A model generated the notes under the pieces. It ran no database searches. It was given only the letters and a program-made list of their open reading frames with translations, and was not told the origin of the DNA. From the NCBI GenBank assembly GCA_014803415.1, contig JAAVBZ010000023.1, positions 203,329 to 262,109 on the forward strand: a DNA stretch of 58,781 nucleotides. Reading direction: 5' to 3'. Shown piece after piece: positions 39,922 to 42,707 of the stretch (position 1 is its first letter; every line of letters begins with the position of its first letter). The translations under genes were made by a program, and so were the position numbers. The DNA comes from Lachnospiraceae bacterium (GTDB taxonomy: Bacteria > Bacillota > Clostridia > Lachnospirales > Lachnospiraceae).

Positions 39922-39950
39922 TGGACTTATTGGGAGAAATAGCGTAAAAT
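39922..39950 (+). promoter_or_regulatory. Promoter of the phase-variable leader
   Basis: TGGACT (39922-39927) and TAAAAT (39945-39950) are 17 bases apart. Transcription would begin near 39957, about 50 bases before the leader ORF. The stretch from 39815 to 39921 shows no gene. Confidence 0.55.
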
Positions 39951-40005
39951 AAGGCAGAACCAAGGCCATTAAATTTACATAAAATTTACGGAAAGGGGTT
40001 GCAAA

Positions 40006-40110
40006 ATGGCGGATAGAGCGTACAATCTGTTAAGCAAGCAAGCAAGCAAGCAAGCAAGCAAGCAAGCAAGCAAGCAAGCAAGCAAGCAAGCAAGCAAGCA
40101 AGCAGTATAA
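40006..40110 (+). CDS. Leader peptide containing (AAGC)18
   Basis: 34 codons from ATG 40006, which follows GAAAGGGG at good spacing: MADRAYNLL, then the four-residue unit SKQA repeated about six times, then Val and TAA at 40108-40110. The product has no likely enzymatic role. Because four bases are repeated, a change of one repeat alters the frame. With 19 copies the frame would read SSITALFFTLL and run to TAG 40257-40259; with 17 copies it would read QYNCALFYPV and run to TAG 40232-40234. Both alternatives cross the hairpin at 40159-40222, while the present one ends 48 bases before it. See the finding on phase variation. Confidence 0.65.
   Translation: MADRAYNLLSKQASKQASKQASKQASKQASKQAV
40032..40104 (+). 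repeat. Tetranucleotide repeat, 18 copies of AAGC
   Basis: An uninterrupted run of AAGC from 40032 to 40103 plus one extra A. Perfect tetranucleotide tracts of this length change copy number by slipped-strand mispairing and are known phase-variation switches in several bacteria. Confidence 0.97.
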
Positions 40111-40158
40111 CTGCGCTCTTTTTTACCCTGTTACACCCCTTTATATATCTGATATGGC

Positions 40159-40222
40159 AAAGCCAGCGAAAAGACAACAGGAGATTCCTGCAGGAATTTC
40201 CTGTTGTCTTTTCGCTGGCTTT
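40159..40222 (+). terminator. Long perfect hairpin between the leader and the LAL regulator
   Basis: AAAGCCAGCGAAAAGACAAC and following bases to 40182 are complemented exactly by 40199-40222, a 24-bp stem with a 16-base loop, and a run of five T at the end of the 3' arm. It lies inside the only path from the promoter to the regulator gene, so it must be read through for expression. Confidence 0.85.
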
Positions 40223-40301
40223 TTGGCTGCATAGGGCGAAGCCCGCGACCGAGGCGTAGCCTGGGTGCGTATGCCGGTTCCCGTTGCACAAGGAAGGAGA
40301 A

Positions 40302-42707
40302 ATGGATTTGGAGAAAGGATACATAGCCCCCGATACCGCCCTTAAGAAGCTTCGGGCGGCAAGGAGCCTGAAACAGACCGTGTATATCTATGGCGCTACC
40401 GGGTACGGCAAGACAGAACTGGTAAAACAGTACCTGAAAAACCGCAGATACCAGTATATTTCCTGTGAGGAAGACACTGCAGCCCTTGTGGAACTGGCGG
40501 AAGATACGCCGGAAGGAATGCCAAAAGGCAGGAAAGGAACGGAAAACGAATCCCGGTCAGTGGTGGTGCTGGATGACCTGCACCTGTTAAAAAGCGCGGA
40601 AGGGCGCAGGGCTGCACTTGCCCTTGCAGGGCGGAAAGATGTATGGCTCATCTTCGTATGCAGGAGTCCTGTTCCTTCATGGCTGATGCCGCTGTATGTA
40701 GCCGGCGGTTTCATCGTCATCAATGAGAACGATCTGTGCCTTGGGGAGAAAGAGACCACTGCCTACATGGAAACACAGGACATCATACTCACGGAAGAAG
40801 AACTGGCGTCCGTCTGTAAAAAGTGCCGGGGGAACGCCTATGCCGTCCGCCATACGGCCCTGAAGATACAGGAAGGAATGCGTCCGGGGTCGGAGCTGGA
40901 GAAGGAGATAGAAGGGGCCTTTGCGGAGTATCTGGAAGACCATGTGCTGGTGCAGTGGGACAGCGACCTTCTGGAGTTTCTGATGCAGCTTTCCGTCACG
41001 GAGGAGTTCACCCTGCCCCTTGCGGAGACCATCACTGGGAACAGCCATGCAGTGGAGCTTTTAGGGCGTGCAGCGGAAACAGGGAATTTCATTTCCTTAA
41101 AAGAGGATACTTACCGCCTGCATCCGATCCTTGTGAAAGCACTGCGCAGGCGCGGGGCAAAGACACTGGGCTCAGAAGTGCTAAAAGACCATGCCTACAA
41201 TGCAGGACTGTGGTATGAGATGCAGGGACAGATCGTGCCTGCCCTTGCCATGTTTGAAAAATGTGGGAACAAAGAGCGCATCCGGGAACTCTTAGTGCGG
41301 AACGCCCGGTTAAATCCCGGCAACGGCCATTACTTTGCACTGCGCCATTATTACCTGGGAATGGAAGAAAAGGAACTGGAAGACAGCCCTGTTCTGATGG
41401 CAGGGATGAGCATGCTCTATTCCCTGCTGATGCAGGAGGAAGAGAGCGAATACTGGTATAAAAAGCTGGAAAGATTTGCAACCTCTGTAAAGGGCGGGCA
41501 GAAGCGGGAGGCAGTGAGCCGTCTTGCATACCTTGACATCGCCCTGCCCCACCGGGGGAGCATGGATATGATAGAAATCATGAAAAAGATGCCGGCCCTG
41601 CTCTTTGACAAAGGGATGGGGCTGCCGGAGTTCTCGGTCACCAGCAATATCCCCAGCACCATGAACGGGGGCAAGGATTTCTGCCACTGGAGCAGGAATG
41701 ACCGGAAACTTGCTGCCACCATAGGGAAGCTGGTGGAGCGGGTGCTGGGCCGTTATGGGAAGGGACTTGTGAAGGCCGCCCTTGGCGAGAGCCTGTATGA
41801 AAAAGGGGAGGACACCTATGAAGTCTTAACGCTCCTTACCCGCGCAAAGATGGAAGCGGAGAGCGGCGGGGTGCCGGAGATCGCCTTTGCGGCCGTAGGG
41901 CTGACCGTGAGGCTTGACGCCTTACAGGGTGAGCTACAGACGGCTAAGGAGGTGCTGTCCTCCTTTGAAAAGAGCATAAGGGAACAGGGTGCGGTGCAGC
42001 TCCTTCCAAACATTGCCGCCTTAAGGTGCCGTCTTGCCCTGCGGGAGGGTGACAAAAAGACGGTGGAGGACTGGCTGAAGGAAGCGCCGGATGAGAACCG
42101 GGAGTTCTGTATCTTAGAGCGCTACCGTTACCTGACAAAGGTACGCTGCTGCCTTTCCGCAGGGGAATACCTGAAGGCCCAGTCTTTACTGGAAAAGCTG
42201 CGTTACTATGGGGAGAAGTGCCACCGTACTTATACACGTATGGAGATAAACCTGCTCAGCGCCATAACGAAGTACCGGACGGGCGGGGAGTGGAAAGAGG
42301 AATTCTTCACAGCCCTGAAAGAGGCAGAAAACTACCATTTCCTGCGCATCATCAGTGAAGAAGGAGCGGCGGTACAGGAGCTGCTTAGGGCGGCAGGGAA
42401 ACGCAAGCTGGAGAAGGAGACCGCCGATAGAAACTGGCTCTCCCGTATTCTGGAGGAGACAGGGAAGGTGGCGGTGCGCTATCCGGTGTACTTAAAAGGG
42501 CAGCTTGCGAAAGCGCCGGATTTCTGTGAGGCGGCGCTGTGTGTCCTTCGTCTGCAGGCGGAGGGGAAAAGCTATGGACAGATAGCAGAGGAATTATCTA
42601 TCAAGGAAGCCACGGTAAAGTACCATGCGAAAGAGAACTACCGGAAGTTAGGGGTATCCGGCAAGACGGACGCGGTGCTTGCAGCCCGGAATTTAGGGAT
42701 TCTATAA
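40302..42707 (+). CDS. MalT-like LuxR-family (LAL) transcription regulator
   Basis: 801 residues. The P-loop is GATGYGKTEL near residue 31, and Walker B is SVVVLDDLHLL near 88. The central 400 residues are helical repeats (TPR-like) as in MalT. The C-terminal LuxR helix-turn-helix at about 745-800 includes GKSYGQIAEELSIKEATVKY. Such STAND ATPases turn on their targets after ligand binding. ATG 40302 follows AAGGAAGGAG; the frame is open from 40284. The large surface protein begins 15 bases downstream and is the likely target. The gene is more GC-rich than the sequence upstream of 40000. Confidence 0.88.
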   Translation: MDLEKGYIAPDTALKKLRAARSLKQTVYIYGATGYGKTELVKQYLKNRRYQYISCEEDTAALVELAEDTPEGMPKGRKGTENESRSVVVLDDLHLLKSAEGRRAALALAGRKDVWLIFVCRSPVPSWLMPLYVAGGFIVINENDLCLGEKETTAYMETQDIILTEEELASVCKKCRGNAYAVRHTALKIQEGMRPGSELEKEIEGAFAEYLEDHVLVQWDSDLLEFLMQLSVTEEFTLPLAETITGNSHAVELLGRAAETGNFISLKEDTYRLHPILVKALRRRGAKTLGSEVLKDHAYNAGLWYEMQGQIVPALAMFEKCGNKERIRELLVRNARLNPGNGHYFALRHYYLGMEEKELEDSPVLMAGMSMLYSLLMQEEESEYWYKKLERFATSVKGGQKREAVSRLAYLDIALPHRGSMDMIEIMKKMPALLFDKGMGLPEFSVTSNIPSTMNGGKDFCHWSRNDRKLAATIGKLVERVLGRYGKGLVKAALGESLYEKGEDTYEVLTLLTRAKMEAESGGVPEIAFAAVGLTVRLDALQGELQTAKEVLSSFEKSIREQGAVQLLPNIAALRCRLALREGDKKTVEDWLKEAPDENREFCILERYRYLTKVRCCLSAGEYLKAQSLLEKLRYYGEKCHRTYTRMEINLLSAITKYRTGGEWKEEFFTALKEAENYHFLRIISEEGAAVQELLRAAGKRKLEKETADRNWLSRILEETGKVAVRYPVYLKGQLAKAPDFCEAALCVLRLQAEGKSYGQIAEELSIKEATVKYHAKENYRKLGVSGKTDAVLAARNLGIL

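Follow-up and report, generated by a model that had tools for sequence, protein, structure and literature searches.

A predicted repeat-dependent attenuator ahead of a LAL-type regulator gene in a Lachnospiraceae genome, and related elements before other genes

A stretch of 58,781 nt from a Lachnospiraceae bacterium (GenBank assembly GCA_014803415.1, contig JAAVBZ010000023.1, positions 203,329 to 262,109 of the forward strand; hereafter the window) carries a tract of AAGC repeats inside a short leader open reading frame (ORF). A terminator hairpin and the gene of a LAL-type regulator follow. The element is likely to be a phase-variable, translation-dependent attenuator, in which the number of repeat units would decide whether transcription passes the terminator. 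Similar elements occur before other genes in several families. An earlier note, made on the same DNA, had proposed that repeat, leader and terminator work together in this way. At the level of sequence the proposal is backed by the start codon with its Shine-Dalgarno (SD)-like stretch, by the terminator, by the frame layout and by compensatory pairs, and it is very likely right in kind. The parts of the locus are as follows.

39888 to 39957, plus strand: conserved upstream block with the outer promoter P1, aligned in 7 relatives
39922 to 39950, plus strand: P1, TGGACT (39922-39927), 17 nt, TAAAAT (39945-39950), 9 of 12 consensus matches
39990 to 39998, plus strand: SD-like GGAAAGGGG of the leader, assigned from its sequence and from the enrichment of SD-like stretches in elements over control promoters
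39999 to 40026, plus strand: inner promoter P2, TTGCAA, 16 nt, TACAAT; it overlaps the start of the leader, and transcription from it is predicted to begin at about the first repeat
40006 to 40110, plus strand: leader ORF in the present frame, ATG at 40006, stop TAA at 40108-40110, 34 residues
40032 to 40103, plus strand: 18 whole AAGC units, from Tandem Repeats Finder
40097 to 40124, plus strand: T1, a small hairpin (40097-40117) using the last repeats, then CTTTTTT; -6.1 kcal/mol
40159 to 40226, plus strand: T2, terminator hairpin (40159-40222) and T-run, from folding and from compensatory pairs in relatives
40302 to 42707, plus strand: LAL-type (MalT-like, LuxR) regulator, 801 residues, from Pfam
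42723 to 48545, plus strand: BspA-type leucine-rich repeat (LRR)/MBG surface protein, 1940 residues, from Pfam LRR_5 (BspA-type) and MBG_2

Leader, tract and terminator in the window

Tandem Repeats Finder reports the tract at 40032-40104 with a period of 4, 18.2 copies and 100% matches. The unit is not divisible by 3, and the tract lies inside the leader ORF 40006-40110, as the earlier note had described together with the ribosome site and the TAA. The leader peptide reads MADRAYNLLSKQA...V, with the pattern MADRAYNLL(SKQA)n. In the present frame the stop lies 5 nt beyond the tract and 48 nt ahead of the hairpin. The remaining two frames terminate at 40232-40234 and 40257-40259, both past the hairpin. 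One stop (40108) is thus placed at least 28 nt before the terminator and the others (40232, 40257) beyond the hairpin, which makes the earlier arithmetic of 17 or 19 against 18 units exact.

The same stops bear on a classic contingency locus, in which the tract ORF would be the 5' end of the gene and slippage would shift the frame of the gene itself. Such an arrangement is found at locus L023, where the tract frame continues into an ORF of 984 residues. In the window, however, none of the three frames extends beyond 40259, short of the regulator ATG at 40302, and the regulator start is preceded by its own ribosome-binding site (RBS). In-gene contingency was rejected for the window on its stops at 40108, 40232 and 40257, and as an account of the element it is scarcely credible.

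A predicted intrinsic terminator, T2, stands between leader and regulator. It comprises 24 Watson-Crick pairs, one G-U pair and five more pairs around a 4-nt loop, in agreement with the perfect 24-bp hairpin of the earlier note. The stretch holding T2 folds with -53.4 kcal/mol (z -11.7), and none of 200 shuffles was as good. Among six copies of the regulator group the T2 sequence diverges while its pairing is retained: 10 of the outermost 12 pairs are formed in all six copies and the remaining two in five of six, with both sides changing together at pairs 5, 6, 7, 8 and 11. A scan of 39700-40400 against Rfam returned no family at the gathering score. A resemblance of the hairpin to animal microRNA precursors fell beneath the Rfam cut-off and was set aside as resemblance only.

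No run of codons for an end-product amino acid, as in trp-type attenuators, occurs in the leader pattern. No alternative antiterminator hairpin was identified at the window locus, although no systematic search for one was made.

Recurrence of the element

Loci, genomes and contigs are denoted by handles beginning with L, G and C. Regulator matches were obtained in 11 of 40 relatives, and a scan of genome contigs added two more close ones. The relatives of the regulator that bear a name belong to a Lachnospiraceae metagenome-assembled genome (MAG) and to a Clostridia MAG from the MGBC set. The earlier note had suggested a search for AAGC tract, hairpin and LAL gene in other genomes, and the order of tract, T2 and regulator is indeed present in five relatives. 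The unit number differs among them, compared as one genome per species: 19 in G008, 28 in G013, at least 28 in L016 (whose contig begins in the tract), 22 in L017 and 27 in G406. G406 is another genus, and its regulator is split between frames. The regulator of G013 contains an internal stop and leaves the contig end, and the contigs of G443, G020 and G021 end in or at the tract. Upstream block and leader start are well conserved among the relatives. The 158-nt upstream block gave no match in plasmid or phage collections.

Stray copies of the upstream block occur apart from any working element at G000:C12:5374-5449 (L049/L051), G002:C15:59757-59825 (L073) and G013:C8:102364-102525 (L072). At L072 the tract is reduced to one unit, followed by the tail of an apparent surface-protein gene, and a similar tail is found at L073. 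Both look like decayed operons.

Within the order, presumably Lachnospirales, AAGC tracts are uncommon yet scattered widely. Those of at least 8 units are present in 8 of 397 genomes of the family and those of at least 7 units in 20 of 392 genomes of the order. They were also found in two further families (9 of 38 and 3 of 48 genomes) and in the class (2 of 391, G000 being one), as counted with a tract-end pattern that misses tracts followed by xA. In total, 43 distinct tract loci were assembled. A hairpin with T-run of -10 kcal/mol or lower lies within 135 nt of the tract at 30 of 34 evaluable loci, the loci without a strong T2 by this criterion being L020, L023, L169 and L194. By comparison, terminators as strong as these stand behind 6 of 50 viral tracts of AAGC and, in the same DNA as the elements, behind 6 of 83 control promoters. 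Elements and controls were treated with the same RNAfold-based finder, adopted because an initial finder was too strict; the latter missed most elements and called 1 of 58 viral loci (L110).

Frames and stops

Frame statistics cover 32 elements with T2, six of them from the regulator group; L020 and L023, where T2 is absent, and the coding tract of L170 are excluded, and expectations derive from shuffled tract-T2 spacers. Assembled copies were classed with cut-offs suggested by the text of a study on the pil1 locus of Streptococcus gallolyticus (PMC3894217; Danne et al., 2014): OFF denotes a stop lying 28 nt or more ahead of T2, and ON a stop at most 8 nt from T2 or beyond it. In 28 of the 32 elements some frame has a stop within 8 nt past the tract (12.9 expected, p 7e-9). 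T2 is reached by one or more frames in 32/32 (26.8 expected, p 0.0015), and an OFF and an ON frame are both available in 28/32 (20.8 expected, p 0.002), with p-values that treat the elements as independent, which is true only in part. Collapsing homologues, as judged by similarity, leaves 21 elements, of which 18 have the early stop (9.8 expected, p 1.6e-4), all 21 a frame reaching T2 (16.4, p 0.003) and 20 the OFF and ON pair (13.9, p 0.0013). The T2 starts of L195 (43) and L188 (65) were set by hand because the finder took in weak outer pairs. A start codon was chosen for 22 assembled copies, of which 10 are OFF, the one in the window included, and 8 are ON; four are intermediate, with gaps of 12, 13, 18 and 26 nt.

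These counts bear on a second explanation. T2 may end a short RNA or an upstream unit, with a regulator promoter past 40222 and the tract a passive unstable repeat. Short RNAs would be expected from P2 to T1 or from P2 to T2, and AAGC tracts exist in other settings in viral and other genomes. Across families, however, tract, T1, T2 and gene recur in this order with a frame layout above chance, which renders the explanation improbable.

Hairpin T1, promoters and leader start

T1 was missing from the earlier note. Its loop overlaps the early stop codon in the window, and across elements the hairpin often includes the last AAGC unit. A T-run lies directly past the tract in 29 of 32 elements, versus 15.0 expected. 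Over the 21 collapsed elements the mean T1 energy is -3.97 kcal/mol compared with -0.46 in shuffled sequence, with 0 of 5000 resamplings as low.

P1 reaches a mean score of 10.76 in the collapsed elements (8.36 shuffled) and P2 one of 10.05 (4.09 shuffled), and neither mean was equalled in any of 5000 resamplings; a TGn extension adds 2 to the scores in this comparison. P2, absent from the earlier note, was found by a promoter scan at 39999-40026. Tract onset is 1-9 nt downstream of the P2 -10 hexamer across elements, and L166 and L173 match all 12 positions of TTGACA-17-TATAAT. P2-bearing elements contain an ATG, GTG or TTG at most 9 nt past the -35, open into the tract, in 23/23 cases compared with 22/97 control promoters. 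ATG specifically is this start in 18/23 elements (10/97 controls), and an SD-like stretch precedes the -35 in 20/23 (8/97 controls). Elements with P2 of at least 9/12 and controls of at least 10/12 entered this count, in which the window represents the LAL group; the six LAL relatives, contig-edge loci and five elements that lack P2 (L019, L020, L022, L160 and L184) are excluded. A leader ORF that is a mere promoter artefact was considered and dropped, given the start-codon and SD enrichment and the frame statistics.

A third explanation takes P2 as the main promoter. RNA would start in the first repeats, and the units would act on initiation, on the 5' end or on stability, with no leader translation. 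The strength and precise placement of P2, seen in its score and in the narrow range of tract onset, speak for it. It leaves unexplained, however, the start codon and SD-like sequence that overlap P2, the frame and stop statistics, and two loci (L022 and L184) in which SD-like stretch, start codon, tract and T2 are present without P2; moreover, RNA from P2 would need to get past both T1 and T2. This explanation is therefore considered unlikely. Because L022 and L184 keep the leader parts and T2 in the absence of P2, the leader and not P2 appears to be the core of the switch. L160 is without a convincing start codon or P2. In L183 and L192 (G530 and G544, one genus) the leaders are alike, with 6 and 21 units, and at the corresponding position TTG replaces ATG; the class of the start codon is retained.

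Proposed mechanism

In the proposed attenuator, transcription from P1 would yield a leader RNA with SD sequence and start codon ahead of the AAGC tract. Slippage by one unit (4 nt) would shift the frame in which the ribosome exits the tract. With 18 units, the ribosome would meet the stop 5 nt past the tract and leave, T2 would fold and transcription would end (OFF). In the other two frames it would cross T2 and block its folding, and the polymerase would enter the regulator and surface-protein genes (ON).

In trp-type leaders, a pause hairpin holds the polymerase early in the leader. By analogy, T1 as a weak hairpin with U-run probably pauses the polymerase until the leading ribosome has caught up, which would let the frame be read in time at T2. 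T1 would be disrupted by a ribosome in any frame, and would not be disrupted in a bare P2 transcript.

P2 and T1 bracket the tract closely and would form a micro transcription unit with the repeats as its only content. It is conceivable, though doubtful, that this unit is a dedicated, undescribed part of the switch. It may drive transcription through the tract and set the slippage rate, provide a repeat RNA, or gate the traffic of polymerases from P1.

Several observations weigh against the attenuator. Transcripts from P2 would lack the leader start codon, which complicates the simple picture. The promoter at 39922-39950 named in the earlier note is a candidate: its hexamers and spacing are retained in 7/7 aligned relatives, but its score is at chance level, since 26% of shuffles reach 9/12; the scan gave 2 sites as good as P1 versus 2.0 expected. 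The finder did not detect a T1 hairpin in 9 of 32 elements. The early-enough stop (OFF) taken alone is not enriched (28/32 versus 26.0, p 0.21), four of 32 elements (L195, L188, L169 and L187) lack the OFF and ON pair by the cut-offs used, and the elements are in part related. The layout departs from the scheme at L020, which has no T2, at L023 with its continuous frame, and at L170, where the tract is coding; the L170 tract, at a contig start (G634:C295), reads into a protein that we take to resemble a type I restriction specificity subunit. No long ORF on the same strand lies within 520 nt at L022 and L163. Two regulator copies are without tract, one truncated at residue 375 (G019) and one 42% identical (G023).

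Relation to known systems

According to its text, the study on pil1 deals with a leader peptide that contains 22 GCAGA repeats. The leader of the OFF state stops 39-49 bp short of a hairpin, and 21 or 23 units bring its end to or into the hairpin (ON). The effect is lost with chloramphenicol, the mechanism was established experimentally with mutants, and pil3 is a second case in the same species (PMC3894217; Danne et al., 2014). The earlier note regarded the switch as two known ideas newly combined; in view of the text on pil1 and pil3 this claim falls, as the combination had already been published (PMC3894217). The mechanism is not new; the breadth of its occurrence and the anatomy of P2 and T1 are.

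As far as the pil1 text goes, both systems have a repeat tract with a unit length not divisible by 3 in a short leader ORF with RBS, and a terminator hairpin between leader and gene, with an OFF gap of 48 nt here versus 39-49 bp. A change of one unit brings the ribosome up to the hairpin or into it at pil1, and would do the same here. They differ in the unit (AAGC versus GCAGA), in the host (Clostridia versus Streptococcus) and in the first gene, a regulator here and a pilus operon there. P2 and T1 recur in the present elements; neither is mentioned in the text of the pil1 paper, its sequence figure aside. Mutants prove the switch at pil1, whereas here it is deduced from sequence. A literature search, drawn mostly from sources outside subscription journals and including papers that cite PMC3894217, did not return any description of such elements from Clostridia.

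Trp-type attenuators, mentioned in the Discussion of the pil1 paper (PMC3894217), share with the proposed attenuator that the position of the leader ribosome decides terminator formation and that an early hairpin may pause the polymerase. The signal differs: a heritable unit number here, charged tRNA there. The tetranucleotide contingency loci of Haemophilus and Neisseria likewise switch by slippage in a four-base tract. Their tract usually lies in the coding start or the promoter, unlike the present one in a separate leader before a terminator.

If the attenuator holds true, commensal Clostridia of the gut make repeated use of a switch proven in one other case, that of streptococcal pili, and have it ahead of regulators, surface proteins of the BspA type and sensor proteins. 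P2 and the pause-like T1, both recurrent, would be new testable parts. Unit number and downstream stops would reveal the ON or OFF state, and existing long-read metagenomes would therefore give the ON fraction of these loci in a host directly.

Downstream genes and further loci

The host genome of the window comprises 4.26 Mb in 48 contigs (completeness 97.4%, contamination 9.0%). The label LAL for the gene at 40302, taken from the earlier note, is correct because the Pfam domains TPR_MalT and GerE (LuxR) both exceed their cut-offs. The surface-protein gene starts 15 nt past the regulator stop and is presumed to form one operon with it.

Downstream genes were surveyed at 27 loci, with L196 cut by the contig end. 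Pfam analysis of 20 genes identified BspA-type LRR_5 in four (L160, L183, L192, L201) and HAMP or chemoreceptor domains in three (L187, L189, L193). Six had no Pfam match (L018, L164, L169, L172, L186, L197). The matches of the remaining genes were scattered or weak: Calx-beta, TIR with TPR, dCache, AAA, FecR, Flg_new_2 and GLUG. At L057 (G074, near 3852-3911) a perfect promoter is joined by leader, tract and terminator; no long gene follows them on their strand, and the neighbours are in reverse orientation. The locus is perhaps an orphan or antisense unit.

Tracts of the pil1 unit GCAGA occur in 8 of 246 genomes of the order. Two of the eight loci are coding (L206, L207), four have a T2 of -15 kcal/mol or lower (L208, L210, L211, L212), and for two (L209, L213) the downstream DNA is missing. 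Judged by eye, P2-like hexamers enclosing a start codon precede the GCAGA tracts of L209, L210, L213 and L236 in the same order. On the doubtful reading of a dedicated unit, P2 and T1 would thus not depend on the sequence of the repeat and might also occur at pil1. At L019 (G302:C26) nine GCAGA units lie at the start of an acyl-CoA-ligase-like gene, about 180 nt past the AAGC tract. This places two putative slippage switches in series, a GCAGA tract behind an AAGC leader with terminator. The five-unit GCAGA pattern gives 216 overlapping matches in G634 and 132 in G620, that is, many separate tracts, and both genomes are possibly very rich in slippage switches.

A motif like ATAGGGCGAAGCCCGCGACCGAGG lies between T2 and the regulator (window 40231-40263). 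It recurs in several copies at L017 (2680-2965), is also found on the reverse strand of L003 (near 2185-2100), and is a possible dispersed repeat.

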